Positions 6,658 to 54,930 of a stretch of 64,000 nucleotides of DNA are shown here, piece by piece (within the stretch, counting starts at the first letter, position 1; the number at the start of each line of letters is the position of its first letter). Below the pieces are notes generated by a model. It saw only the letters and a list, made by a program, of their open reading frames with translations, had not been told where the DNA came from and did no database searches. Both the position numbers and the translations under genes were made by a program. The stretch comes from a virus, in IMG/VR virus record IMGVR_UViG_3300025728_000145, positions 1 to 64,000 of that record. One strand, 5' to 3'.

Positions 6658-6716
6658 TGTATCAAGATTTCATCAAGAAATCATCAAATCCACACTGAAA
6701 GGTCTCTCGCTATCTA

Positions 6717-8055: not shown

Positions 8056-8380
8056 TGTCCTGCTGACTGGCTGCACGCCTAGCGGAGATGTGGTGGACGC
8101 TGACTACGCTCAGGTGTGTCAGGACCGCAAAACGGATTCTAGGGTCGAGGATGACAAATGCTCAGACCAAGGCCGGTCCTCCGGAGCCTATGGCTGGTAC
8201 TTCTTCAACATGAACTCCGGATCAAGCAACACCGTTCCTCCCGTGGGATCACGTCTCATGGGAGGTTCGACAACTGCCCCGACAAGTGGTAGCGTAAAGA
8301 GTGGAATTCCCTCAAAAGGAGGGACCGTCTCCCGTGGTGGATTCGGTGGAAGCGCCAAGGGCGGATCGTCCGGTGGATAA
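7985..8380 (+). CDS. Lipoprotein with Gly/Ser-rich tail
   Basis: 131 residues from TTG 7985, chosen because AGGAGG (7975-7980) precedes it. Twin-basic N-terminus, hydrophobic core and lipobox LTGC. Mature part has VCQDRKT-SRVEDDKCSD and YGWYFFN, then a Gly/Ser/Thr tail with SRGGFGGSAKGG. This layout recurs in phage lipoproteins of unknown role; an envelope surface function is likely. Confidence 0.65.
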   Translation: MSKRGKTTRRTGTVALGLSGLLASVLLTGCTPSGDVVDADYAQVCQDRKTDSRVEDDKCSDQGRSSGAYGWYFFNMNSGSSNTVPPVGSRLMGGSTTAPTSGSVKSGIPSKGGTVSRGGFGGSAKGGSSGG

Positions 8381-8394
8381 GGAAAAGGATTAGT

Positions 8395-8925
8395 ATGCTG
8401 ATTACAATTATGTTTTGGTCAACTATCGGATTGGCTGTGGCGGTAGCCGTTTGGTTGGAAATCAAGTTCGTGCATGATGAGTTTGGAATGGGCCTAGCAG
8501 CAGGGTTTGGTGTGATTATTCTAGGTGGAGTAGCCATGGCGATTACCATCCCAAATGTGATCAATGCCAATGAGGACAAGATTATCGTCAAAGACACTGA
8601 AGACAACTCCTATGCTCTTCGGGCGCTAGCCAATAACACCAACCTTGAAGGCCGTCAATACTTCCTAGGGGGAGGCTACATAGGTGAAAAGCAGGTCTTC
8701 AATTACATGACGCAGAGCGAACATGGGGCCATCAGGCTCCAGTCCATGGATGCAGCACAAGCAACCATCTTTGAAGACACGAACACTCCACACCTTCGAG
8801 TGATCAAGACCGAGAGGTTTCTCCCGAGTGTTGTTCCGTGGGACTTGGGAAGCACCATGCACTATGACTTCCACATCCCTGCCGGTTCGGTCCTTGAGAC
8901 CTATAACGTGGACGTGAACAAGTAG
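8395..8925 (+). CDS. Two-TM protein with external domain
   Basis: 176 residues. Two TM spans (about 3-23 and 31-53) are followed by a soluble beta-rich domain (SYALRALANNTNLEGRQYF, GAIRLQSMDAAQATIFED, FHIPAGSVLETYNVD). The pattern, including 'IPAGSV', matches membrane proteins I recall from actinophages. It follows the lipoprotein by 14 nt. Confidence 0.62.
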   Translation: MLITIMFWSTIGLAVAVAVWLEIKFVHDEFGMGLAAGFGVIILGGVAMAITIPNVINANEDKIIVKDTEDNSYALRALANNTNLEGRQYFLGGGYIGEKQVFNYMTQSEHGAIRLQSMDAAQATIFEDTNTPHLRVIKTERFLPSVVPWDLGSTMHYDFHIPAGSVLETYNVDVNK

Positions 8926-12979: not shown

Positions 12980-13375
12980 ATGTGGGTTATGTTTGAAGGT
13001 GGATTTGTAAGCGCAGTACAAGATCGGGACGATCACGGAATCCTTCGAGTCCGAGCGCGCGATCAGCGTTCGTTGACCACAATGCTGGATATCATCAAGC
13101 TCTCCGGACACGATACCGGAGACTTGAAGCCCGTCACTTCAGCGGGTACCGACTACCGTTGGCGTGTCCTGCTTCCACGGGAACTGTTTGGAGTCTTCCT
13201 CGCTCAGGTGTCTGATGACATCAGCTACGGAAACTTCAAGGATCAGGCAACCAAGACACGCGGGAAGAAGTGGCATGACGCATTCATGGATGTGTGGGTT
13301 GCCATGTTGGCCGTAGACGATGGCCCAAAGTTCAAGCGGGGATGGGACTTGGCGGGACGTAAGGTCAAGGCATAA
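12980..13375 (+). CDS. Conserved phage protein (MWVMFEGGFVSAV family)
   Basis: 131 residues. The opening MW-MF-GGFVSAVQDRDD, the centre LRVRARDQRSL and later YRWRVLLPRELF and ISYGNFKDQ match a very common actinophage protein family of unknown function. Standard length for the family. Confidence 0.68.
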   Translation: MWVMFEGGFVSAVQDRDDHGILRVRARDQRSLTTMLDIIKLSGHDTGDLKPVTSAGTDYRWRVLLPRELFGVFLAQVSDDISYGNFKDQATKTRGKKWHDAFMDVWVAMLAVDDGPKFKRGWDLAGRKVKA

Positions 13376-13381
13376 CGGATA

Positions 13382-13417
13382 GGCAGGGTTGACGCCCTGC
13401 CTTTTCTGTTGTAATCT
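13382..13417 (+). promoter_or_regulatory. Nested terminator-promoter module
   Basis: Stem GGCAGGG (13382-13388) / CCCTGCC (13395-13401), loop exactly TTGACG, T-run TTTTCTG, then TAATCT (13412-13417) 17 bases after the loop. Ends the upstream unit and starts a leaderless transcript at ATG 13424. Confidence 0.85.
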
Positions 13418-13423
13418 ATGATT

Positions 13424-14086: not shown

Positions 14087-14571
14087 TGGAACTCTTTATT
14101 TTTCTTCTGGTGGTTCTCGTCGTAGTCGGAGTACCGGGGGGATTCTACCTCAGCGACCGTGAAGGTTGGAACGCCACCTTCAAGCGACTGAACAGGGTGG
14201 TTCGGGCTAGCATTGAGAACAAGGACAAAGATAAGATGCTCCCGCAGATCAGCCACACAATGACTTCCGATGACTGGGATGCCCAGTTCAAGGGCGATAA
14301 GAACCTAACCCCTGTCGAAACCCCACAAGAGAACCACTACATTGTCAACACCTTTTTCAAGAGGGCATACAACGGGTCGGACTGGCCGGGGTGGAAGTGC
14401 AAATGCGGGGCCTCACGGGTTGAACCAGTGCTAAGCGCATATTACGGGGGACTTGAAAGTGCCATCAAGGACGCCAAGAAGGAATCCGAAAAGCATGTGC
14501 AGGATGCCAACAGGAATGACCAGATCAGGGCACAATACGCGGCTAAAGGAATAACAGGGAGGGAATGGTAA
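14086..14571 (+). CDS. Membrane-anchored zinc-ribbon protein
   Basis: 161 residues: TM 3-22, then REGWNATFKRLNRVVRASIE, a DWDAQFKGDK segment, and WPGWKCKCGASR followed by YGGLESAIKDAKK. It shares the whole layout with 18728 (EGWKRTFKRLSTTSRASLE, DWDRQFEG, W.CSCG) and the C-terminal part with 9569. Confidence 0.65.
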   Translation: MELFIFLLVVLVVVGVPGGFYLSDREGWNATFKRLNRVVRASIENKDKDKMLPQISHTMTSDDWDAQFKGDKNLTPVETPQENHYIVNTFFKRAYNGSDWPGWKCKCGASRVEPVLSAYYGGLESAIKDAKKESEKHVQDANRNDQIRAQYAAKGITGREW

Positions 14572-41523: not shown

Positions 41524-42945
41524 TTAGGCTTCTACGCCGGGTGCCTTGTCAAGGTAGACCAGTTCGTAGAGCGTGGCGTAGAGTCCGGTGACTCCAGCGA
41601 AGCCTGCACCGTGAGAGGTCCACGGATTGCCGGGGCGCTTCTCCCAATCCACCTGACCGAGCTTGGAGACCTTTGCCGCAACTGCGGACCAGAACTCTTC
41701 CTCAGTGCGGGACTGCTCCAGAGCGCCAGAGAGGATGTCCTTGCCGAGCTTGGAGACGGAGCCGACACCAGCGAGGTTCTTGAGTTGGTACTTGACCTTC
41801 TCTTCCACCGGGTCTCCACCTTCGATAGGTACGACCAGTCGCGGACGTTCCTGCCATGCCGGGGCGCATGTACGGGCAACGAGTTCCCAGTACTTCTTGG
41901 CCACCTTCTCCAGCTTCAGCCCACGGTGCTCCAGACGGCCCATCAACTGCTCAGGGAGCATGTTGCCGACCGAACGGCGCAGACCTTCATAGGATACCGG
42001 ACGGTCCCGTTCCTGCGGCCCACCAGTCATGTTGACCAGACCGTACCAAACGGAGTCGCCATCTTCTGCCAGAGAGCGAGCGACCTCACGGACGATCTGT
42101 TCGTGTGCGGGGTTGCCCTGCTCCATGTGGACCTTTGTGGCCTCGATGAGAGCCTTGGGAAGCTTGCGCTGGTTGGTGTTGATGTCATCGAACAGCGTAG
42201 CTTCGTCCGTGTAGCGCAGACCGTAGTAGAGCATCACCGGAACGTCCGGGTTGAAGTTGGCCTTGTTCTCCCATGCCCAGAACAGACCACCAGTGCGGTG
42301 CTGTCCGTCAACGATGGAGACAACGGAGGGGCCGAACTCCTTGTGGATACCCTTGATGTCTCCCTTGTTGAACAGGTGGTTGAACTTTGCCTTCTCCTTT
42401 TCGGAGTAGACGCGAACGGACGCGATGATCGGGGTGATCAAGTGAGCGTGCGTATGCTGCTCATCGGTCTCCTGAGAGTAGTACCGTCCGATTGCAGGGA
42501 AGCGAGCTTCGAGCGGATCGCGCTGATATCCGTTCTGCCGTGGTGAGGTGGACTGCTCATCCACCGAGTTGTATGTGGAGATGAACGCGAGTTCCTTCAG
42601 GGCATCAGGAGTCAGGGTAGCGAGTGCCGCCTTGCCAGCGACAAACTCCGACTCGATGACCATGCGGCGTTCCTTCTTTGCCTGTGATTCGGCGCGAGTT
42701 TCAAACTCCGGTTCCTTCGGCTCTGCGGCCTTACCTTCCGGATCGGTTTCTTCCTTGGGGTTGTCCGAGAACATGGGCTTGACATCCGGTGCGGGTGCCG
42801 TGACCTTGGGAGCTTCCTCCGTAACTTCTTCGGTGACCGTTGCAGTTGCGGATTCCGCTGCTGCGATTTGTGCTGCTGCCTTCTCTGCGTTGGCCTTGCG
42901 GGTTGCCGCTGCCTTCTGTCCGCGAGTAAGAGTCTGAGTAGCCAT
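41524..42945 (-). CDS. DGQHR-domain protein (DndB/DpdB-like)
   Basis: 473 residues. First 90 are Ala/Glu/Lys/Pro-rich and probably disordered. The core has VSIVDGQHRTGGLFWAWE, the signature DGQHR motif, then MLYYGLRYTDEATLFDDINT and NQRKLPKALIEATKV, the ParB-like fold of DndB-family proteins. Relatives regulate or take part in DNA phosphorothioate or deazaguanine modification. No dnd/dpd partner is visible here. Lone reversed gene between terminators; C-rich codon use differs from 30-39 kb. Confidence 0.75.
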   Translation of the reverse strand: MATQTLTRGQKAAATRKANAEKAAAQIAAAESATATVTEEVTEEAPKVTAPAPDVKPMFSDNPKEETDPEGKAAEPKEPEFETRAESQAKKERRMVIESEFVAGKAALATLTPDALKELAFISTYNSVDEQSTSPRQNGYQRDPLEARFPAIGRYYSQETDEQHTHAHLITPIIASVRVYSEKEKAKFNHLFNKGDIKGIHKEFGPSVVSIVDGQHRTGGLFWAWENKANFNPDVPVMLYYGLRYTDEATLFDDINTNQRKLPKALIEATKVHMEQGNPAHEQIVREVARSLAEDGDSVWYGLVNMTGGPQERDRPVSYEGLRRSVGNMLPEQLMGRLEHRGLKLEKVAKKYWELVARTCAPAWQERPRLVVPIEGGDPVEEKVKYQLKNLAGVGSVSKLGKDILSGALEQSRTEEEFWSAVAAKVSKLGQVDWEKRPGNPWTSHGAGFAGVTGLYATLYELVYLDKAPGVEA

Positions 42946-44964: not shown

Positions 44965-44988
44965 AATGTTTGAACGACTTCAGCCGCG

Positions 44989-45027
44989 AATCCAACCTCA
45001 ACCTCAACCTCAACCTCAACCTCAACA
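44989..45027 (+). repeat. CAACCT tandem repeat
   Basis: Six near-perfect head-to-tail copies of CAACCT directly upstream of CAACAACCACAGGAGGA. It looks like an expansion of the CCAAC leader motif found before neighbouring genes. Confidence 0.8.
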
Positions 45028-45043
45028 ACCACAGGAGGAATCA

Positions 45044-45259
45044 ATGCGGTACCGAGACGTACTGTTCATAATCTTCTCGATTGCCCTGACCGCGTTCCTT
45101 CTGGTCTGTGCCTTCCGAGGTGGTCACATGATCTTTGACAACCTCGAAGACGACCGTAAGTACAACCAGCGACAGCAGCAAGCCCAAGAATGGGTAGATC
45201 ACTGCCGACAAATCAAAGACGCGGAAGTATTTTCCGCCTGTATTAAGGCGTACCGATGA
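45044..45259 (+). CDS. Single-TM protein (71 aa)
   Basis: ATG 45044 with AGGAGGA upstream. RYRDVLFIIFSIALTAFLLV is the TM, followed by a soluble tail with two Cys (DHCRQIKDAEVFSACIKAY). An in-frame ATG at 44966 would add a Pro-Gln repeat from the CAACCT tract. Confidence 0.6.
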   Translation: MRYRDVLFIIFSIALTAFLLVCAFRGGHMIFDNLEDDRKYNQRQQQAQEWVDHCRQIKDAEVFSACIKAYR

Positions 45260-45489
45260 TCCCACTCCCAGACCTCGAACCGGAGACTCTTAAAACTTTT
45301 GAAGCTGCGGTAACGGAGTTGTTCCCGGACGCTACCTTCCGGCACGTCGAGCAGACCATCATGGGTCCGCCGTACCTCATCATCTGGATACCGGATGAAA
45401 CGTCAGTCGTCCCGATAACGCTGTGCATCGATGCGGGACAGGGATTGCAGGGAGTTGACAAGGATGACCTTCGTGTCGTAGACTTGTAA
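45256..45489 (+). CDS. Alpha/beta protein (77 aa)
   Basis: ATGA overlap. ETLKTFEAAVTELFPDATFR, PYLIIWIPDETSVVPITLCI, DDLRVVDL. Possibly a small strand-helix module; unknown. Confidence 0.55.
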   Translation: MIPLPDLEPETLKTFEAAVTELFPDATFRHVEQTIMGPPYLIIWIPDETSVVPITLCIDAGQGLQGVDKDDLRVVDL

Positions 45490-45671: not shown

Positions 45672-45934
45672 TGGCTCGCCGTTCATACGAAACACTCGCC
45701 CGTGATCTTGCCAAGGAGAAAGGAATCTCCGTACAGGTAGAAGTAGACAACGGGCGTGACTTCTCCGTAGAGATCTGGGCGTTCAATGCACATCAAAACT
45801 TTGATGATGCTCACACCAACATCCCAAGCATGGAAGGCTACGGCCTGAAGTCACCGGCTGCGGTGTGGAGGCAGGTCTACGAAGACTTGCAGCAGTACGA
45901 AACATGCCCACTGGACTGTCGCTGCTACGAATAA
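45671..45934 (+). CDS. Hypothetical protein (87 aa)
   Basis: SYETLARDLAKEKGISVQVE, FSVEIWAFNAHQ, a helix, and a C-terminal CPLDCRCYE. Unknown; followed at once by a nested module. Confidence 0.55.
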   Translation: MARRSYETLARDLAKEKGISVQVEVDNGRDFSVEIWAFNAHQNFDDAHTNIPSMEGYGLKSPAAVWRQVYEDLQQYETCPLDCRCYE

Positions 45935-45984
45935 AACTTTTAGAACGGGTCACCTTGACAGGTGGCTCGTTCTTTTTGTATGCT
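45932..45984 (+). promoter_or_regulatory. Nested terminator-promoter module
   Basis: Stem GAACGGGTCACC (45943-45954) / GGTGGCTCGTTC (45961-45972), two G-U pairs, loop exactly TTGACA, T-run, then TATGCT (45979-45984) 18 bases after the loop. Preceded by AAAACTTTTA. The clearest example. Confidence 0.88.
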
Positions 45985-46020
45985 GGAGCCGTACTGATAA
46001 AAACTTACAAGGGGAGAGAT

Positions 46021-46410
46021 TTGAAGACTGTTACTGTATACCGTGTCGAGCACAAGGAGAAAGGACACGGCCCGTACCTTGACAGGAATGGCATCTTCAG
46101 GGGCGTATCCGGACTGCACACAGCACATGAACGATCCCCTCAGCACCCCGGACCACGACAAGACGGGCTGGGTTGGGATGTTTACGGCAAGTCCTTTGCC
46201 TTCCCTGACCGCGAGCGCATGGACTGGTGGTTCAAAGATTTCAAGCACAAGCTCAACCGTGAAGGATTCGTCGTAAACATTTACGAGGTGGGTGAAGAAC
46301 ACACGACCGTAAGTGAAAGTGGCAAGCAAGTCATCTTCGAAAAAGATCAAGCCAAGCTGGTTGACACGCAAAGTGTCATAGGGTATAGTAAATATTACCA
46401 AACCAACTAG
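46021..46410 (+). CDS. RVE-GPY family protein (129 aa)
   Basis: TTG 46021 after AAGGGGAGAG. VTVYRVEHKEKGHGPYLDRN, HPGPRQDGLGWDVYG, MDWWFKDFKHKLNREGFVV, GKQVIFEKDQAKLV: long-form paralog of 43523. Confidence 0.66.
   Translation: MKTVTVYRVEHKEKGHGPYLDRNGIFRGVSGLHTAHERSPQHPGPRQDGLGWDVYGKSFAFPDRERMDWWFKDFKHKLNREGFVVNIYEVGEEHTTVSESGKQVIFEKDQAKLVDTQSVIGYSKYYQTN
46361..46389 (+). promoter_or_regulatory. Promoter with -35 in a hairpin
   Basis: TTGACA, 17 bases, TATAGT, within the upstream gene's end. TGACAC/GTGTCA (46362-46377) pairs across the -35 box. Confidence 0.68.
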
Positions 46411-46419
46411 GAGGAAATC

Positions 46420-46668
46420 ATGGCAAAGGTAATGACCAGCGTACAGAACATGTCAGATGCACTGGAGTTCGCAACCAACAGCATGGACGAACGACTGGGT
46501 GGCCGAGTGGACGCTGTTGGACACATCGGTAAGTTGCTGACCGGAGTGTACGACGCTGACCAACTGGACGGCATCCAGAACGAAATCTTCGCAGAAGCTT
46601 CGAAAGACTACCGTGAAGGTTACGAAGAAATGTGGAACACCATCTACACCAAAGCCGTAGGATTCTAG
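46420..46668 (+). CDS. Helical protein (82 aa)
   Basis: NMSDALEFATNSMDERLGGR, VGHIGKLLTGVYDADQ, SKDYREGYEEMWNTIYTKAV: three helices. Leader CCAACTAGGAGGAAATC. Confidence 0.55.
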   Translation: MAKVMTSVQNMSDALEFATNSMDERLGGRVDAVGHIGKLLTGVYDADQLDGIQNEIFAEASKDYREGYEEMWNTIYTKAVGF

Positions 46669-46676
46669 GAGGAATC

Positions 46677-46922
46677 ATGGAAAAGTCAGAGCCGTTCACC
46701 ATCACAACGATCATCACTTTCGATGACCAGAACGAACCACAGGCGGTGACCGTTGAAAACTTTGGTGGAATGCCACGATCAGCCGTAAGGGCAATCTGTG
46801 AGGAAGCACTTGACCGACACTTTGGGCGCGGAGCGATTGAATACAGCGTCAACACCTCATCGGTTGAGGCATTCGAACAGGCAGATGACTTCGTAGTATT
46901 TGAAGTTCGTAAGCTGGTCTAA
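46677..46922 (+). CDS. Alpha/beta protein (81 aa)
   Basis: ATG 46677 with AGGAGGAATC. ITTIITFDDQNEPQAVTVEN, helix SAVRAICEEALDRHFG, AIEYSVNTSSVEAF and DDFVVFEVRKLV. Unknown. Confidence 0.56.
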   Translation: MEKSEPFTITTIITFDDQNEPQAVTVENFGGMPRSAVRAICEEALDRHFGRGAIEYSVNTSSVEAFEQADDFVVFEVRKLV

Positions 46923-46970
46923 AAACTTTGAAGGTCCGGACTTGCATCCGGACCTTTACTGTTATAGACT
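46923..46970 (+). promoter_or_regulatory. Nested terminator-promoter module
   Basis: Stem AAGGTCCGGA (46931-46940) / TCCGGACCTT (46947-46956), loop CTTGCA holding the -35 TTGCAT (46942-46947), 17 bases, TAGACT (46965-46970). Confidence 0.85.
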
Positions 46971-46997
46971 ATTGTTATCAGCCAAACAGGAGGAATC

Positions 46998-47273
46998 ATG
47001 GCAACGGTAAAAATCGGAGACATCAGCCGTAACGGTCTGTACCAGATCACAGACACCAATTGGGACAGCAATGGCACCATGAAGGTTACTGTTCGCGAAC
47101 TCATCGGAGAGCGGGAGATTCCAAAAGACCGCCTTGAAGCAATGCGAAGGTTTGCCCGTCGCGCACTTCCGGAGTACCGTAAAGGTCAGACTCGCGGTGC
47201 CCGTACCATTCGAACATGGTATGCAGATGGATGCAGCCGCGCAACATTCGCAGTCACCCGTAACGAACGGTAG
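46998..47273 (+). CDS. Basic protein (91 aa)
   Basis: TVKIGDISRNGLYQITDTNW, GTMKVTVRELIGEREIPKDR, a basic helix (LEAMRRFARRALPEYRKG) and TWYADGCSRATFAVTR. Possibly nucleic-acid binding; unknown family. Confidence 0.56.
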   Translation: MATVKIGDISRNGLYQITDTNWDSNGTMKVTVRELIGEREIPKDRLEAMRRFARRALPEYRKGQTRGARTIRTWYADGCSRATFAVTRNER

Positions 47274-47302
47274 TTGACAACGGGATGAAAGTCCCATAGA
47301 CT
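47274..47302 (+). promoter_or_regulatory. Promoter
   Basis: TTGACA, 17 bases containing GGGA/TCCC dyad, TAGACT, then AAGTACATACCAACC and CTAGGAGGA. Confidence 0.78.
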
Positions 47303-47340
47303 AAGTACATACCAACCGGAACAAGTCCTAGGAGGACAAA

Positions 47341-47667
47341 ATGAGCAAGTACACTCACGAAGAGAACCGCATGTCACTTCAAGCGATCACCCTCCAAGCT
47401 TTCGAAGCAGGATTGCTGAAAGAGAACCAGCGTCTCTACTACGACAAGGGCAACGGTAACTACGCTGTACCTACTCGGATCAAGGTCGAAGAGTTCAACG
47501 AAGAGACTCAGAAGTGGGAATACATCAGCCACCCTGCATGGGTTCCTGAGTTCACCTACAAGGACGGACCAACCGCAGTAGGTAAGGTGCTCACTGGAGT
47601 AGCCAACGTCCTCTGGGCCGTCATCATGAACAAGCGCCAAGCAGAACTGGACGAACTCCGGAAGTAA
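47341..47667 (+). CDS. Hypothetical protein (108 aa)
   Basis: LQAITLQAFEAGLLKENQRL, NYAVPTRIKVEEFNEETQKW, then a hydrophobic helix VGKVLTGVANVLWAVIM that may be membrane-associated. Confidence 0.55.
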   Translation: MSKYTHEENRMSLQAITLQAFEAGLLKENQRLYYDKGNGNYAVPTRIKVEEFNEETQKWEYISHPAWVPEFTYKDGPTAVGKVLTGVANVLWAVIMNKRQAELDELRK

Positions 47668-47716
47668 AAATTTTATGTCGCTCCGCTTGACACCAACAAG
47701 CGGGGCGGCATAAGAT
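47668..47716 (+). promoter_or_regulatory. Nested terminator-promoter module
   Basis: Stem GTCGCTCCGCTT (47677-47688) / AAGCGGGGCGGC (47698-47709), two G-U pairs; TTGACA (47687-47692) spans the loop edge; TAAGAT (47711-47716) 18 bases later. Preceded by AAAAATTTTA. Confidence 0.82.
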
Positions 47717-47748
47717 GGTTACACCAACGAAGTCCACAGGAGGACAGC

Positions 47749-47940
47749 ATGAAACTTTTCACAGTCACGATGAGCGTCAACAACAATCTTCTTTCTGTAC
47801 CCATTAATCAGGTTCAGGGATTTGGAGAACACTCCCCCACCCAAGGCTTCATCTTTATGGGGACAAAGACGGTGACCACAAAGGAGAGCTATTCGACTCT
47901 CGTAGAAATGTGGAACGACTTGACAGGTGAGTCCGAGTAG
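47749..47940 (+). CDS. Small beta protein (63 aa)
   Basis: LFTVTMSVNNNLLSVPINQV, GFIFMGTKTVTTKE, helix YSTLVEMWNDLTG. CACAGGAGGACAGC leader. Its DNA end carries the next -35 box. Confidence 0.55.
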   Translation: MKLFTVTMSVNNNLLSVPINQVQGFGEHSPTQGFIFMGTKTVTTKESYSTLVEMWNDLTGESE

Positions 47941-47948
47941 CTTAGACT
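47920..47948 (+). promoter_or_regulatory. Promoter
   Basis: TTGACA in the upstream gene's end, 17 bases, TAGACT, then ATAGTTACCAAC. No hairpin here. Confidence 0.78.
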
Positions 47949-47979
47949 ATAGTTACCAACGAAGTCCTAGGAGGACACA

Positions 47980-48309
47980 ATGCGCATCACGCACAAAACC
48001 CTGAAAGCACTTCTCGAAGACCTGAAAGCTGTCGAGAACCGCGAAGGTGACTACCTCGCAGCACTTGACTCAGCGGTAAGCACTGTTGAGGAATGGGTCG
48101 AAGTATCCGCACCTGATCCATCCGAGGGGACACGCTACTACTCGGACGACTTCTTGGACTACGAAGAGTCGAAGCCCTACGGTGATGACACAGCCCGAAT
48201 CATCGACATTCACGCTGGTGTCATTGCCTACTCACACAAGGGCAACGCGGCAGACATCTGCCAAGCTCTGGAAGTCAATCCGCTCTCACAGTACAAAGAC
48301 GAACGGTAA
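47980..48309 (+). CDS. Hypothetical protein (109 aa)
   Basis: THKTLKALLEDLKAVENREG helix, middle acidic loop with TRYYSDDFLDYEESK, then ARIIDIHAGVIAYSHKGNAA. CTAGGAGGACACA leader. Confidence 0.55.
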   Translation: MRITHKTLKALLEDLKAVENREGDYLAALDSAVSTVEEWVEVSAPDPSEGTRYYSDDFLDYEESKPYGDDTARIIDIHAGVIAYSHKGNAADICQALEVNPLSQYKDER

Positions 48310-48356
48310 AACTTTTAGGTAGTGGGTTTGCAATCGTAGGCCCACTACCTTAGACT
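48310..48356 (+). promoter_or_regulatory. Nested terminator-promoter module
   Basis: Perfect 10-bp stem AGGTAGTGGG (48317-48326) / CCCACTACCT (48341-48350); TTGCAA (48328-48333) in the loop; TAGACT (48351-48356) 17 bases later. Preceded by AAAACTTTT. Confidence 0.86.
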
Positions 48357-48384
48357 AGAACTACCAACCACACAGGAGGACAAA

Positions 48385-48696
48385 ATGTCTGTAGCACTTG
48401 AAACCGCAGTATCCATCGACGCAATTGAAGAAGCTCTCGTTGAAGCGGGAATGTATCCTGAGTACGTCGGAGAAGACGACGGCACGACGTTCACCATCAC
48501 CTACGGTGACAAGGAGATTCAGATTTTCAACGCAGTCAGCGGTGACTCGTTTGTAGCCGAAAATCTTTCATCGGCCAGCTACTACTTTGGGATCATCGGC
48601 AAGGACGTTACACGGGCTTTTGAGGACGTGGAGACTCTGGAAGAGTTCATGGCCGCAGTTCGGGACTGCATGGAAGCGAACTTCATGCCACGCTAA
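48385..48696 (+). CDS. Alpha/beta protein (103 aa)
   Basis: AIEEALVEAGMYPEYVGEDD, TTFTITYGDKEIQIFNAVSG, SSASYYFGIIGKDV and a final helix ETLEEFMAAVRDCMEA. CACAGGAGGACAAA leader. Confidence 0.56.
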   Translation: MSVALETAVSIDAIEEALVEAGMYPEYVGEDDGTTFTITYGDKEIQIFNAVSGDSFVAENLSSASYYFGIIGKDVTRAFEDVETLEEFMAAVRDCMEANFMPR

Positions 48697-48712
48697 AAGA
48701 ATTTAAACTATC

Positions 48713-48754
48713 GGCCCTTGTCAGTTGACAGGGGCCATTAGTTTGTCATAGACT
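48713..48754 (+). promoter_or_regulatory. Nested terminator-promoter module
   Basis: GGCCCTTGTCA (48713-48723) pairs with TGACAGGGGCC (48726-48736), one G-U; TTGACA (48725-48730) begins the 3' arm; TAGACT (48749-48754) 18 bases later, then ATAGTTACCAAC. Confidence 0.8.
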
Positions 48755-48791
48755 ATAGTTACCAACACAGCAACAGTCCTAGGAGGACAAA

Positions 48792-49439
48792 ATGAGCGGG
48801 TTCACAATGGCAGACTTCAACATCACCGTAGATGAAGAGACCGGCCACCGGGTTGCCAAGTTCGCAGTAGACTCCAACATGCTGCCCGTAGAACAGCCGG
48901 ACATGTACAGCACCTACAACGGTGACTACTTCACTGAGCGCTACCTCGAAAATATGGAAGAGGACGGACAGCCGGGAGACTATGACGCCTACGACTGGAA
49001 GTACGATTCCTCCGCAGTGTGCAGGAAACTCAGTGAGGTGGGAGCACAGGATGTCGTTAATCAGCTTTCGTCGGAGGGAATCATCCGTAGTGTTGAGGTG
49101 GAAAGCACATGGTCACCTCGTGAATATAACTTTGCAACGGACAGCTACAAAGCAGTCTGGGAGTTCGATCTTGATCTTCTGGAAGCATGGGCAAAAGAAA
49201 ATAGGTTCAACGACTCCGAGTACGTCAAGAAATATCACAGCAGCTACGACGGATTCATGTCCTATGTAGAAGATTGGATGGAAGATGAGCGGTATGTTGA
49301 GGGGTCAACACTTTGGCTCACACTGGCCGCTTACCTCCGGATGAACCTTGATCTGGTACAGCAAGAGGAATCTATGCGAGAGGTCGAGTATGAAGCATGG
49401 GATGAGACCACCACGATCACACTGAAAACAGAAGACTAA
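48792..49439 (+). CDS. Conserved phage protein (SPREYNF-TD type, 215 aa)
   Basis: Centre SVEVESTWSPREYNFATDSY, AVWEFDLDLLEAWA and KKYHSSYDGFMSYVEDW match a phage family with 'SP..YN..TD' and 'Y.S.DGF.S' motifs. Acidic throughout, like DNA-mimic proteins, though no function is known to me. Confidence 0.6.
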   Translation: MSGFTMADFNITVDEETGHRVAKFAVDSNMLPVEQPDMYSTYNGDYFTERYLENMEEDGQPGDYDAYDWKYDSSAVCRKLSEVGAQDVVNQLSSEGIIRSVEVESTWSPREYNFATDSYKAVWEFDLDLLEAWAKENRFNDSEYVKKYHSSYDGFMSYVEDWMEDERYVEGSTLWLTLAAYLRMNLDLVQQEESMREVEYEAWDETTTITLKTED

Positions 49440-49487
49440 AAACTTTTAGAGCGGTCCTTGACAGGGCCGCTCTAACTGTTTTAGACT
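49440..49487 (+). promoter_or_regulatory. Nested terminator-promoter module
   Basis: TAGAGCGGTCC (49447-49457) / GGGCCGCTCTA (49464-49474), one G-U, loop exactly TTGACA; TAGACT (49482-49487) 18 bases on. Preceded by AAAAACTTTTA. Confidence 0.88.
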
Positions 49488-49518
49488 GTAGTTACCAACA
49501 AAGCCTAGGAGGGCAATC

Positions 49519-49728
49519 ATGGAAAAGGAACTTACACTCGAACAGGCTCAAGAGTTTGTAAAGACTCGCGACGGCTACGGTTCCACTCGACTTTATGGAA
49601 TCATTGCGGACGGTGATTTCGCTGGACAGACTGTGGCAATCAAGTCCACCTATCACCTCGAACGGTACACCTACTCTCGTATCTACACAAAGTCCACAAC
49701 CATTACCGATATCGTCGGTAAGGCATAG
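49519..49728 (+). CDS. Hypothetical protein (69 aa)
   Basis: ELTLEQAQEFVKTRDGYGST, LYGIIADGDFAGQTVAIKST, YTYSRIYTKSTTITDI: helix then strands. CTAGGAGGGCAATC leader. Confidence 0.55.
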   Translation: MEKELTLEQAQEFVKTRDGYGSTRLYGIIADGDFAGQTVAIKSTYHLERYTYSRIYTKSTTITDIVGKA

Positions 49729-49732
49729 TCAC

Positions 49733-49782
49733 AAAAGTTTTTCTCTACCGGACTTGCATAGAGTAAGTAAGTCCGGTAGAGT
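49733..49782 (+). promoter_or_regulatory. Nested terminator-promoter module
   Basis: Perfect 13-bp stem CTCTACCGGACTT (49743-49755) / AAGTCCGGTAGAG (49769-49781). TTGCAT (49754-49759) starts in the 5' arm and TAGAGT (49777-49782) lies in the 3' arm, spacer 17. Confidence 0.85.
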
Positions 49783-49819
49783 AGGTACTACCAACAAGGA
49801 AACGTCCTAGGAGGACAAA

Positions 49820-50230
49820 ATGATTATCACCGGAATCACAGTTCAGGAACTCATCGACGTAGTAGCAAAGCTCAACGCCGAAAGCTACAACGGCAACATC
49901 GTGATTGAGCGGGTAGAAGCACTATCCGCAACGGGTACGCGTATCTCAGCAAAGCTGGGAACGAATGACAGCCGTGCTCACGGGTCACGCAGGTCAGCAT
50001 CAGGCCGTCACGGCAAGTACCTTTGCTGGCACGGTTTCCGCGACGTTTACCGCGCTTGCTTTGCGGTCAACCCTGCTGCACGTATCAAGTCCGGTCAGGT
50101 CGTCTACCGTGGCGCACAGCACTTCGAGGACACCTACGAGACGACGGCGTACCAGAACATCGGGTCGATGGTTTCACCAACTTACATGCCCGAATGCTGC
50201 GTAGGAACCTGCAACGGCGACTTCGAATAA
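49820..50230 (+). CDS. Hypothetical protein (136 aa)
   Basis: VQELIDVVAKLNAESYNGNI, RRSASGRHGKYLCWHGFRDV, RACFAVNPAARIKSGQVVYR and CCVGTCNGDF. The GRHG.Y.CWHGFRD segment recurs in actinophage proteins as I recall. Unknown role. Confidence 0.6.
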   Translation: MIITGITVQELIDVVAKLNAESYNGNIVIERVEALSATGTRISAKLGTNDSRAHGSRRSASGRHGKYLCWHGFRDVYRACFAVNPAARIKSGQVVYRGAQHFEDTYETTAYQNIGSMVSPTYMPECCVGTCNGDFE

Positions 50231-50277
50231 AAACTTTTCGTGGAGGGGTTGACGAAAGTCCCCCTCCACGATAGACT
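50231..50277 (+). promoter_or_regulatory. Nested terminator-promoter module
   Basis: Perfect 10-bp stem CGTGGAGGGG (50239-50248) / CCCCTCCACG (50261-50270); TTGACG (50249-50254) in the loop; TAGACT (50272-50277) 17 bases later. Preceded by AAAAACTTTT. Confidence 0.88.
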
Positions 50278-50316
50278 TTCATTAACAGCACAAACAACCA
50301 ACAAAGGAGAAACACA

Positions 50317-50520
50317 ATGCTGAAGCTCATTGAAAACGGCTGGAAGCTCGAACCCATCAACGGCAACTCCGGCGTGTACGTCGCAAGCCGTGGAGATTCC
50401 AACATCGTCTACGTCACCAACATTTGGGGCGAACTGGAACGGCGCTCGCAGAACTTCAAGAATCGCTTCGACGCACGGAATGAAGCGAAAGACATCGCCC
50501 GAGAGTTCGCAACACTCTAA
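50317..50520 (+). CDS. YRI-like protein (67 aa)
   Basis: GWKLEPINGNSGVYVASRGD, NIVYVTNIWGELERRSQNFK, RFDARNEAKDIAREFATL. Strands then helix; a loose relative. Leader has AAAGGAG. Confidence 0.52.
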   Translation: MLKLIENGWKLEPINGNSGVYVASRGDSNIVYVTNIWGELERRSQNFKNRFDARNEAKDIAREFATL

Positions 50521-50553
50521 CCACTTCAAAAGTTTTACGTCTGGGAGGACACC

Positions 50554-50832
50554 ATGGCTACACCGAAAGTCATCACCGCACTGATCGAAGACCGAGACAA
50601 CTGGAAGGTAGGGGAAACTCCCTTCAAGGTCGAACTGAAAGGTCAAGCCGTTCCGGAAATCAAAGCCAAGCGGGTACAGAACTTGGCTACAGGAGCATTG
50701 TCGGTACAGATCATTGCACCCGTCACGTTCGCACTCTCGACACTGGACAAGATTGCCCAGAACATCCTGACAGGCGCGAAGGTGCGAGAGTACCGAAAGG
50801 GTTCGGTCATCGTTCGGGAGTACAGCCGATGA
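50554..50832 (+). CDS. Beta-rich protein (92 aa)
   Basis: KVITALIEDRDNWKVGETPF, GALSVQIIAPVTFALSTLDK, KVREYRKGSVIVREY. GGGAGGACACC leader after AAAAGTTTT. Unknown. Confidence 0.55.
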   Translation: MATPKVITALIEDRDNWKVGETPFKVELKGQAVPEIKAKRVQNLATGALSVQIIAPVTFALSTLDKIAQNILTGAKVREYRKGSVIVREYSR

Positions 50833-51089
50833 GCTACATTGTAGTCAGGGCCGCAGAGAACGAGCGGACACGCCAGACCCTCGAACGGTACTTGTACGAA
50901 GGTCAGAAGATCGTAGGTGAGCCGGTAAGGTCCGAATTTGATTCACAATACTTTATCGTGGACACCGGAACGAACGATACCTACCGCAGCCAGTACATCA
51001 CGGATCGCCTGAACTCAGGGCCGTTCGGTGCGAAGCTGTTCACCAGTCTTCCAGAAGCTGAACTCTACATTCAGCGGGAACTCCGATAA
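50829..51089 (+). CDS. Hypothetical protein (86 aa)
   Basis: ATGA overlap. RTRQTLERYLYEGQKIVGEP, DSQYFIVDTGTNDTYRSQYI, LFTSLPEAELYIQREL. Unknown; end of a two-gene unit. Confidence 0.56.
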   Translation: MSYIVVRAAENERTRQTLERYLYEGQKIVGEPVRSEFDSQYFIVDTGTNDTYRSQYITDRLNSGPFGAKLFTSLPEAELYIQRELR

Positions 51090-51096
51090 CTTCAAA

Positions 51097-51143
51097 AAAC
51101 TTTTAGCCTAGGGTTGCGCGGTTGCGTTACCCTAGGCTATAGT
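51097..51143 (+). promoter_or_regulatory. Nested terminator-promoter module
   Basis: Perfect 10-bp stem AGCCTAGGGT (51105-51114) / ACCCTAGGCT (51129-51138); TTGCGC (51114-51119) at the loop edge; TATAGT (51138-51143) 18 bases later. Confidence 0.82.
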
Positions 51144-51183
51144 TGTTTCAAGAGCAGGAACCGAAACGAAGAAAGGTAAGGCC

Positions 51184-51378
51184 ATGAAAACGACTTGCAG
51201 CACAGAAGGACACTACTTCTACCGGACACTGAACACAGTAGCCCACAAGTGCACTTACTGCGCTGCACGTCGCTGGCCGTGGACACGCGAAAGCGTAGCT
51301 TCACTTCGAGCGGTAGCCGTTCTTCGACTGGCCTCAAAGAATCCAGCTTTTGCAGCAAAGTTGCTCAAAGCAAATTGA
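51184..51378 (+). CDS. Small zinc-type protein (64 aa)
   Basis: TTCSTEGHYFYRTLNTVAHK-CTYCAARRW: C..H then C..C, a compact zinc site, followed by a basic helix. Its 3' end overlaps a promoter TTGCTC-17-TAAACT. Confidence 0.6.
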   Translation: MKTTCSTEGHYFYRTLNTVAHKCTYCAARRWPWTRESVASLRAVAVLRLASKNPAFAAKLLKAN

Positions 51379-51425
51379 TAGTGTAAACTGAGAGAGTAAT
51401 ATCCAGTCTAGTGAAAGGAACCGCC

Positions 51426-52073
51426 ATGCTGAAAGCATTAGGAGTGGCCGCAGTAATTGCGCTCGCAGGAACCACGGCTGCACCAGCCCAAGCTGCTGTG
51501 GCACCCGTGACACTGGCACCAGTCGCCGTAGCATCTACCGTAGCTGTTGAAGCTGCACCGGACGCTGTAGTGACGTTTGAAAGTCCCGAGGTAGAAACTG
51601 TCGCTGCACCAGAAGAAGTAACCCCAGTGGTTGCTGAACCTGTTGTAACCGAACCAGTTACAGAGCCTACAACGGAACCGACACCGGAGCCGGTAACGAT
51701 CTTGCCAACTCCAGTAGCACCTGTTGAAAATATTTCAACGCCAACAGTTGGGGGAACTGTGACAGAAGAAGCAACACCCGAGGTAGTTGAGGAACCGGCA
51801 ACGGTGCCCGAAACTCCCGCCGAACCACCAGTAATCGAGGAACCTGTGGTAACACCCGAAGACACAACCGCAATTGAAATGTTTGAAGGAACGAGCGAAG
51901 ACTTCAAGCCCGAAGGCGGAACGTACATCGGAACCTACAAGGGTCCAAAAGATATCTGGACAGGTGAAGGCAAGGTTGCTGTAAAGGGCACCATGACGAC
52001 CACAGTTGACGGTAATCCCAACAACATGGCCGAAAGTAACATCCTTTACTTCTGGCACGTCTACACCATCTAA
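51426..52073 (+). CDS. Secreted Pro/Val/Glu/Thr-rich protein
   Basis: 215 residues from ATG 51426. Signal peptide (LKALGVAAVIALAGTTAAPA, cut near AQA-A), then about 120 residues of EP/VTEP/TPE-type repeats, a wall- or envelope-spanning stalk, and a C-terminal small domain (GTYIGTYKGPKDIWTGEGKV ... YFWHVYTI). It probably displays that domain outside the cell. Low-complexity DNA here also opens a false reversed frame. Confidence 0.65.
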   Translation: MLKALGVAAVIALAGTTAAPAQAAVAPVTLAPVAVASTVAVEAAPDAVVTFESPEVETVAAPEEVTPVVAEPVVTEPVTEPTTEPTPEPVTILPTPVAPVENISTPTVGGTVTEEATPEVVEEPATVPETPAEPPVIEEPVVTPEDTTAIEMFEGTSEDFKPEGGTYIGTYKGPKDIWTGEGKVAVKGTMTTTVDGNPNNMAESNILYFWHVYTI

Positions 52074-52079
52074 AAGTCA

Positions 52080-52120
52080 TAGTCTAGGACTTGCCTATTG
52101 GGGGAGTCCTAGGCTATGCT
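52080..52120 (+). promoter_or_regulatory. Nested terminator-promoter module
   Basis: 12-bp stem TAGTCTAGGACT (52080-52091) / AGTCCTAGGCTA (52105-52116), one G-U; TTGCCT (52091-52096) in the loop; TATGCT (52115-52120) 18 bases later. Confidence 0.82.
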
Positions 52121-52158
52121 TGCTCTACAGGCAAGAACAGAACAACCTAGGAGTTAGC

Positions 52159-52473
52159 ATGTCTTTCATTATCGAATACTCGTCCATCGAAGACGACGCA
52201 GAAGACGGCGGCATGGGTGAGAAGCTGGTCAAGCTGACCGAACCGCGTGTGTACGGGTACACGAAGGAGGAACGTGACGCAGTGAAGGCCGGTAAAGCTG
52301 GCAAGGGCACACACTTCAAGCTGTACGACGACGACGGCAACTGCTACTACACTGGCAAATACTTTGGTGACGCTGATTCGGAAGAAGCTTTCGAGCCGCT
52401 GGAATGGGGTTACGGGGAAGGGTGCACGCACATCAAGTACCGTCAGAAAGACGGAACCTACGAAGTTCTGTAG
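52159..52473 (+). CDS. Acidic protein (104 aa)
   Basis: ATG 52159 after CTAGGAGTTAGC. SFIIEYSSIEDDAEDGGMGE, FKLYDDDGNCYYTGKYFGDA, EPLEWGYGEGCTHIKYRQKD. Strand-rich; unknown. Confidence 0.58.
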   Translation: MSFIIEYSSIEDDAEDGGMGEKLVKLTEPRVYGYTKEERDAVKAGKAGKGTHFKLYDDDGNCYYTGKYFGDADSEEAFEPLEWGYGEGCTHIKYRQKDGTYEVL

Positions 52474-52487
52474 GGGAAAAGATTTTT

Positions 52488-52527
52488 AGGGGCTGGCCTT
52501 GACGGGCTGGCCCCTTTGTCTTAGACT
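52488..52527 (+). promoter_or_regulatory. Nested terminator-promoter module
   Basis: AGGGGC (52488-52493) / GCCCCT (52510-52515) with inner GCC/GGC, loop exactly TTGACG (52499-52504); TAGACT (52522-52527) 17 bases later. Confidence 0.83.
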
Positions 52528-52555
52528 AGAGTTATCACCGACCCAAGGAGTGAAA

Positions 52556-52780
52556 GTGAAGGTAGAAATGGTACGGCCCAGAGCAATCAAGGTAGGCGCA
52601 ACGATCAAGGTTCGCCCGGAGTGCTTCAACCTCACGGGACTGCCAGAATCGGCGCGTGGAGAGTTGAGGGTGGACGAGTACGGTTCCAACTGGAACGGAC
52701 GCTACACCTTGGAAGTGTCGAACCGAGAAGGTGACTGCTTCAACGTCATGGAGTCCGAGGTAATCGAGATTCGCCCGTAG
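52556..52780 (+). CDS. KOW-like protein (74 aa)
   Basis: GTG 52556, 5 nt after AAGGAG (ATG 52568 is possible). RAIKVGATIKVRPECFNLTG, GELRVDEYGSNWNGRYTLEV, VMESEVIEI: small barrel. Confidence 0.58.
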   Translation: MKVEMVRPRAIKVGATIKVRPECFNLTGLPESARGELRVDEYGSNWNGRYTLEVSNREGDCFNVMESEVIEIRP

Positions 52781-52783
52781 TAA

Positions 52784-52826
52784 AAATTTTAGCGGGGTCA
52801 GTTGAGAGACTGGCCCCGCCTTATCA
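52784..52826 (+). promoter_or_regulatory. Nested terminator with weak promoter
   Basis: Stem GCGGGGTCAGT (52792-52802) / ACTGGCCCCGC (52809-52819), one mismatch-type pair; TTGAGA (52802-52807) in the loop. The -10 is unclear (TTATCA or CATTAG). Confidence 0.65.
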
Positions 52827-53864: not shown

Positions 53865-53908
53865 AGACTACGGCCTAACTCTCGTGGAGTCAAGCCGTAG
53901 TCTAAGAA
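53865..53908 (-). promoter_or_regulatory. Nested terminator-promoter module (reversed)
   Basis: On the minus strand AGACTACGGC pairs with GCCGTAGTCT around a loop starting TTGACT; TAGTCT, 17 bases after it, lies in the 3' arm and is followed by TGTTTT. Ends the unit from 54151 and starts the one from 53827. Confidence 0.85.
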
Positions 53909-54885: not shown

Positions 54886-54930
54886 TCTAGGGCATAGCCG
54901 CGTGGATTGCAACCATGCCCTAGAAAAGTT
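54886..54930 (-). promoter_or_regulatory. Nested terminator-promoter module (reversed)
   Basis: Minus strand CTAGGGCAT / ATGCCCTAG stem; TTGCAA in the loop, 17 bases, TAGACT overlapping the 3' arm. Preceded by AAAAAACTTTT. Confidence 0.83.

Follow-up and report, generated by a model that had tools for sequence, protein, structure and literature searches.

The genes of the first-entering gene block in a giant Arthrobacter virus family are, for the most part, separated by an element that probably combines an intrinsic terminator with a host sigma70-type promoter, which would split the early region into transcripts of one or a few genes. The window analyzed here comprises 64,000 nucleotides (positions 1 to 64,000 of IMG/VR record IMGVR_UViG_3300025728_000145), and the array of elements lies within 45.9–52.5 kb. 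This region contains 11 same-strand promoters, each with a TTGACA-like -35 box, a spacer of 16–18 nt and a TANNNT -10 box, and each placed within an inverted repeat of 10–20 bp that holds the -35 box in, or touching, its loop. Promoters of this make-up precede each gene at a frequency above chance, and a GC-rich hairpin of the sense-strand RNA is found right behind the stop codon. The common forms of the -10 box are TAGACT and TAGTCTTT. The arm sequences vary from unit to unit, while the pairing is preserved. The predicted units and related hairpins are as follows (MFE, minimum free energy).

45942..45984, plus strand: predicted terminator-promoter; stem 45942-45973, 14 bp, loop TGAC/TTGACA; -35 45955-45960 TTGACA; U-tract TTTTG; -10 45979-45984 TATGCT; MFE -22.7 sense, -15.5 antisense
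46929..46970, plus strand: predicted terminator-promoter; stem 46929-46958; -35 46942-46947 TTGCAT in the loop; -10 46965-46970 TAGACT
47670..47716, plus strand: predicted terminator-promoter; 20-bp stem; -35 47687-47692 TTGACA, spanning the border of 5' arm and loop; -10 47711-47716 TAAGAT, where the 3' arm ends; MFE -31.7 sense, -20.7 antisense
48317..48356, plus strand: predicted terminator-promoter; stem 48317-48350; -35 48328-48333 TTGCAA at the arm/loop edge; -10 48351-48356 TAGACT
48713..48754, plus strand: predicted terminator-promoter; stem 48713-48736; -35 48725-48730 TTGACA, partly in the 3' arm; -10 48749-48754 TAGACT
49446..49487, plus strand: predicted terminator-promoter; stem 49446-49475; -35 49458-49463 TTGACA forming the loop; U-rich CTGTTT; -10 49482-49487 TAGACT
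49743..49782, plus strand: probable terminator-promoter with weak hexamers; stem 49743-49781; -35 49754-49759 TTGCAT; -10 49777-49782 TAGAGT
50238..50277, plus strand: predicted terminator-promoter; stem 50238-50271, 11 perfect bp; -35 50249-50254 TTGACG inside a 12-nt loop; -10 50272-50277 TAGACT
51104..51143, plus strand: predicted terminator-promoter; stem 51104-51139; -35 51114-51119 TTGCGC (weak); -10 51138-51143 TATAGT
52078..52120, plus strand: predicted terminator-promoter; stem 52078-52118; -35 52091-52096 TTGCCT; -10 52115-52120 TATGCT
52488..52527, plus strand: predicted terminator-promoter; stem 52488-52515; -35 52499-52504 TTGACG forming the loop; U-rich TTGTCT; -10 52522-52527 TAGACT
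52792..52819, plus strand: terminator-like hairpin only; TTGAGA at the loop; no -10 at usable spacing
54886..54924, minus strand: predicted terminator-promoter; AAAAAACTTT upstream; -35 TTGCAA; -10 TAGACT
53865..53903, minus strand: hairpin; -35 TTGACT in the 5' arm, -10 TAGTCT in the 3' arm

The weak hexamers at 49743 and 51104 count against a fused element at these two sites.

The original prediction had placed ten stems in this region, and all 10 are present. It had further assigned to each a -35 box at the loop and a -10 box downstream, an arrangement found in nine of the ten (a plausible -35 with TANNNT 16–18 nt on). The tenth, at 52792, is dropped as a promoter: no -10 follows its TTGAGA at 16–18 nt, and the distance to the next start codon is too short. 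At 45955, 49458 and 52499, the loop is exactly the -35 hexamer, as described earlier, only when the closing T-A or T-G pair stays open; RNAfold closes this pair, leaving a TGAC tetraloop. In other units (47687, 48328 and many of those of phage Racecar) the -35 box straddles the 5' arm and the loop, and its centre is offset from the loop centre by 0 to -7 nt in most units. Four units of the same type had escaped the earlier list: 48713 and 49743 on the plus strand, and 54924 and 53903 on the minus strand.

The pattern lies far above chance, which is excluded as its source. Under stricter criteria, promoter and stem coincide at 9 sites in 43.9–55.0 kb and at none in any of 30 dinucleotide-shuffled sequences, a comparison with shuffled sequence having been among the checks named in the original prediction; among 36 promoter-like sites in 1–43.9 kb there was none. 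The corresponding counts against shuffles are 8 versus 0 in Racecar and 5 versus 0 in Atuin, and a control with reversed sequences gave 1/1/0 against 12/19/8 observed. As negative or near-negative controls, the analysis included phages phiC31, SPO1, T5 and K and two phages of Gordonia, GodonK and Forza. The phiC31 scan revealed no sigma70-like promoter with its -35 box in a hairpin loop; promoters with a stem at -35 numbered 0 in SPO1, 1 in phage K and 0 in T5, overall no more than in the reversed control. A search of 40–58 kb against Rfam gave no family above the gathering score, only chance matches.

The same design is conserved in the Arthrobacter phages Racecar, Talia1610, Mimi and Atuin, and is present in sparser form in Microbacterium jumbo phages, whose terminase is 43% identical. 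The Racecar array is located inside a terminal repeat of ~20 kb. The Racecar annotation includes neither an RNA polymerase nor a sigma factor, which fits the use of the host polymerase. Pattern scans of IMG/VR with consensus sequences of the window type and the Racecar type returned nothing, because the arms are too variable and such phages are rare there. A single IMG/VR relative was reached through a ParB-like gene, and its examined flanks are free of such units.

The base pairs of the stems show that selection acts on the pairing of the sense-strand RNA, as had been proposed. Scored symmetrically over 47 units from 7 genomes, the stems contain 108 G-U pairs versus 16 A-C mismatches (p=6e-18 against 1:1; p=4e-9 against the 63% expected from composition), and the sense strand folds with a better MFE than the antisense strand in 12/12 hairpins of the window. 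Compensatory changes are found between orthologous stems: C-G at Racecar 8337 is G-C in Talia/Mimi, G-C at 13179 is C-G in Mimi, and T-A at 14443 is C-G in both Talia and Mimi. Automatic mapping of stems from Racecar to Talia/Mimi flagged some pairs as broken at sites of intergenic replacement; direct listing revealed another intact stem at these sites in most cases. A pairing test by shuffling of partner columns was left out of the evidence, as it is circular for stems that were picked by pairing.

Between the stem and the -10 box, T is enriched to 47%, versus 20% in promoters that lack a stem (p=1e-6). The 8 nt behind the stem contain on average 3.6 U against a background of 1.7, with at least five U in only 12/47 units and next to none at 47670, Racecar 8856 and Racecar 14443. 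Part of the counted U is supplied by the -10 box itself. Upstream of the -35 box, at about -57 to -50, the motif AAAACTT is enriched. Its end is separated from the -35 box by a mean of 13–16 nt (sd 1.0–1.5), and its position relative to the stem is looser (sd 1.4–3.1). The motif is a candidate UP element, being an A/T-tract within about -38 to -59 that is fixed relative to -35.

Promoters without a stem either overlap the stop of the upstream gene or lie directly next to it. Their -35 boxes lie -49 to +1 nt from that stop, as compared with 18–29 nt after it in units with a stem.

45455..45484, plus strand: stemless promoter of the same class, within the upstream coding region
46361..46389, plus strand: stemless promoter of the same class, within the upstream coding region
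47274..47302, plus strand: stemless promoter; -35 starts directly behind the stop codon
47920..47948, plus strand: stemless promoter, overlapping the stop of the upstream gene

Conversely, hairpins with UUCG or GAAA loops are found in the same genomes where no promoter follows.

The G-U/A-C asymmetry, sense folding, compensatory changes, U-enrichment and recurrence in relatives support the central claim of the original prediction, in which one RNA-selected element would act as hairpin of the upstream transcript and, as DNA, as a promoter. When the polymerase leaves the upstream gene, the RNA would form a hairpin just behind the stop, followed by a short U-rich stretch, and would then be released. 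The same bases in duplex DNA would constitute the next promoter, reading from the UP-like AAAACTT through the 5' arm to the -35 box, within the loop or next to it; the 3' arm would serve as the spacer of 17–18 nt, and the U-tract would run into the -10 box. A hairpin laid over a promoter would be centred near -35 because only the upstream flank and the spacer accept arbitrary complementary sequence. Termination efficiency and host polymerase use are presumptive, as is the benefit, which would be to insulate numerous small host-takeover genes in little space. The predicted RNA ends lie a median of 7 nt from the next start, and this short distance suggests a hand-over of the polymerase. A relay of this kind, in which the active site of the host polymerase stands about 0–14 nt from the next start as the finished RNA is let go, sigma is retained or bound anew, and transcription resumes at the promoter already occupied, is rather unlikely. 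If it took place, a few polymerases caught at the head of the array would express the whole takeover block one gene after another, with no return to the host pool.

An equally doubtful prospect is that the hairpin does not terminate but serves to process a long read-through transcript or to stabilise 3' ends, for instance as a cleavage site of the RNase III type, with the promoter simply overlapping the hairpin. Selection on sense RNA is just as compatible with it, the U-tract is missing in many units, and the promoters could contribute successively to one long transcript. However, processing does not require the U-enrichment seen between stem and -10, and stems of 10–20 bp are short for RNase III. 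Promoters that overlap the upstream gene also lack the hairpin, although this is compatible with both readings. Three further readings were set aside on account of the wobble strand bias, the variable arms and the anchoring of AAAACTT. Very improbably, the hairpin terminates antisense transcription with AAAAGTTTT as its minus-strand U-tract: AAGTTTT does occur within 2–6 nt behind the minus-strand stems, but pairing is optimised for sense RNA, and AAAACTT is anchored to the -35 box rather than to the stem and also stands ahead of the stemless promoter 54615(-). Even less credible is an operator bound by a phage or host repressor over the -35 box, the classic place for such dyad symmetry, since the arms differ with pairing kept instead of being conserved, the dyad centre shifts by several nt, and the G-U/A-C asymmetry reflects selection on the RNA of one strand, which would not be expected of a DNA operator. 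No better placed is a somewhat N4-like cruciform or single-strand hairpin promoter, switched when supercoiling extrudes the -35 loop: the geometry resembles that of hairpin promoters, but a DNA cruciform is weakened by G-T mismatches, which A-C mismatches do not equal in number (108 versus 16, where DNA-strand selection would leave no wobble strand bias), and the antisense strand folds worse throughout.

The fused terminator-promoter consists of parts that are already known, and their systematic fusion is, as far as we have searched, undescribed; no account of this design was found in the literature covered. It would represent a compact regulatory part of ~40–60 nt that seemingly both ends and starts transcription. 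With ~10–20 uses per genome in differing sequences, it offers a natural library from which to derive rules for designing terminators and promoters that overlap, and gives annotators of jumbo actinophages a signature by which to place the borders of early genes.

A structural comparison with known systems reveals both likenesses and differences. Actinophage phiC31 likewise has intercistronic hairpins in its early region, which have little or no U-tail and reportedly were read as terminators. By contrast, its scan is devoid of -35-in-loop promoters, and it is a member of another phage group, whose host is GC-rich. Morons and cassette-like early genes of phages consist of promoter, gene and terminator, and resemble the present array in that every small gene has its own sigma70-type promoter and its own factor-independent terminator; here, one gene's terminator and the next promoter share bases along the whole array. 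The promoters of the N4 virion RNA polymerase place recognition elements in a small DNA hairpin read by the phage polymerase, whereas in the present units it is the RNA that is under selection, and the hexamers are of the host type. SPO1, phage K and T5 also carry small host-takeover genes with host-type promoters and terminators in a first-entering terminal repeat, but it is here that stem-at--35 promoters form an array. After hairpin termination, the E. coli polymerase stays on the DNA and restarts at a nearby promoter, and the closeness of terminator and promoter matters (PMC6978380, PMC11347151). That work concerns the E. coli polymerase on designed templates, whereas the short distance given here is a prediction from sequence. 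The arrays provide natural templates for the in vivo question of polymerase recycling after termination.

Reading of 45.0-54.0 kb, together with promoter and stem scans, bears out the original prediction that hairpins between the early genes carry the -35 box of the next promoter at their loop. The typical unit consists of a stop codon, (T)AAAAACTTTT, the 5' arm, TTGAC(A/G) in or beside the loop, the 3' arm, a U-rich gap, TAGACT, ATAGTTACCAAC, AGGAGG and ATG, and 11 plus-strand units of the window match this layout. The element at 52792, also proposed as a unit, is a hairpin only and has no -10. In 43.9-55.0 kb, 9 promoters with a stem at the -35 were observed against none in 30 shuffle trials, a result with which a reversed-sequence control agrees, and in the related phages the counts over shuffles were 8 versus 0 (Racecar) and 5 versus 0 (Atuin). 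The same scan of the 43.9 kb left of this block found 36 promoter-like sites, none with a stem. In all of 18 Racecar gaps the -35 lies no more than 7 nt from the loop centre (p ~2e-11 for random stem placement under the chosen gap limits). Two more hairpin promoters with TTGAC in the loop were seen outside the array:

1060-1105: GTTTAGGCT TGAC AGCCTAAGC ... TAGTCT
13381-13420: AGGCAGGGT TGAC GCCCTGCCT TTTCTGTTG TAATCT

The IMG/VR virus record of 67,943 bp that contains the window is related to the Arthrobacter jumbo phages Racecar, Talia1610 (Talia), Mimi and Atuin (~194 kb), with 74-76% identity between the large terminases. Racecar genes 1-45, the ParB-like gene and the small genes after it, have a second copy at the right end (genes 290-334), which places its array inside a terminal repeat of ~20 kb, expected to be the DNA first into the cell. 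A WhiB-family regulator is annotated in Racecar; neither a phage RNA polymerase nor a sigma factor is. A large tRNA array occupies Racecar 91.7-112.4 kb, where nearby RNA ligases, polynucleotide kinase and tRNA nucleotidyltransferase suggest a tRNA repair set. Features of the window are:

41524-42945, minus strand: ParB-like gene, sharing 55-62% identity with gene 4 or 5 of the four phages
43.9-54.9 kb: early-gene array, syntenic with the Racecar terminal-repeat array
44975-45044: tandem CCTCAA repeat encoding (PQ)n runs, just upstream of AGGAGG and ATG
51411-52073, within the array: putatively secreted protein, its N-terminus signal-like, with a long stretch rich in Pro, Glu, Thr and Val

The pairing within the stems supports selection at the RNA level. 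Among 47 units pooled over seven genomes, G-U pairs outnumber A-C pairs by 108 to 16 (p=6e-18; 4e-9 allowing for base composition), both being handled identically during stem extension, and the sense RNA folds more stably than the antisense RNA in 12/12 window hairpins. An operator or a cruciform is unlikely, as neither would favour G-U on the sense strand. Between Racecar and Talia/Mimi, compensatory pair changes occur in the Racecar stems at 8337, 13179 and 14443; those at 8856 (Talia and Mimi) and 12800 (Talia) are replaced entirely by a different long stem, with the -35 still at the loop.

Racecar stems start 3-25 nt past the stop codon. Where stems end at least 3 nt before the -10, the intervening gap is 47% T; the equivalent positions of stemless promoters have 20% T (p=1e-6). 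Examples are TTTTG, CTGTTT and TTGTCT in the window and TTTCTTG and TTTCCTG in Microbacterium phages; the A3Wally gap, GGGCTTTTTCTGCTGTAGAAT, is a textbook U-tract running into the -10, which in Racecar is frequently TAGTCTTT. Only 12/47 units have at least 5 U among the eight nt that follow the stem. At places lacking a downstream promoter, the same genomes carry hairpins whose loops are UUCG or GAAA.

The -35 of stem-bearing window promoters lies 18-29 nt past the stop, versus -49 to +1 in the stemless promoters (45455, 46361, 47274, 47920 and 51375); the hairpin is thus an optional module, present wherever intergenic room exists. AAAACTT is enriched in the arrays (observed versus expected: window, 11 versus 0.6; Racecar, 14 versus 0.6; Atuin, 7 versus 0.35), and is fixed more tightly to the -35 than to the stem. 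Its location and A-tract/T-tract form fit a candidate UP element. The AT motif is also found alone: at 50520-50560, AAAAGTTTT follows a stop codon and is accompanied by no stem and no promoter. TACCAAC is enriched near the start site (8 copies in the window, 12 in Racecar and 9 in Atuin, versus 0.6-0.7 expected). Most early transcripts of window 44.0-52.8 kb, Racecar 5.3-18 kb and Atuin 5-13 kb have it close to their predicted start, as a conserved 5'-leader motif.

The same arrangement was found at 2-7 sites each, some probably by chance, in the Microbacterium jumbo phages Pumpernickel, Zooman, Cece, Big4 and A3Wally (reversed control, 0-1), whose terminase is ~43% identical to the window's. 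In phiC31, SPO1, T5, phage K, GodonK and Forza the same scan returned one site at most. Phage K has one hairpin (AGGGCTTGA ctt TCAAGCCCT) at 6685, directly after a stop and suitably spaced from a -10, which may be an independent single case.

The window elements are real, conserved and selected at the RNA level, and each is most likely a fused terminator-promoter. The hexamers are constrained in sequence, and the upstream flank and spacer are free to vary; a hairpin that overlies a promoter harmlessly must then draw its arms from those two stretches, so that the -35 falls at the loop and the 3' arm is limited to about the spacer length. Stems reach as far as the -10 or overrun it by a few nt. 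The fused element would insulate neighbouring genes within ~90 nt. With the RNA 3' end predicted at stem + 7, its distance upstream of the next predicted start ranges from -1 to 17 nt (median 7). Once a hairpin has terminated transcription, bacterial polymerase often remains on the DNA and initiates again at the nearest promoter (PMC6978380, PMC11347151); direct hand-over between units is therefore a possibility. The parts of the element are already known; their systematic fusion, in which the loop carries the -35, is new within the literature searched.
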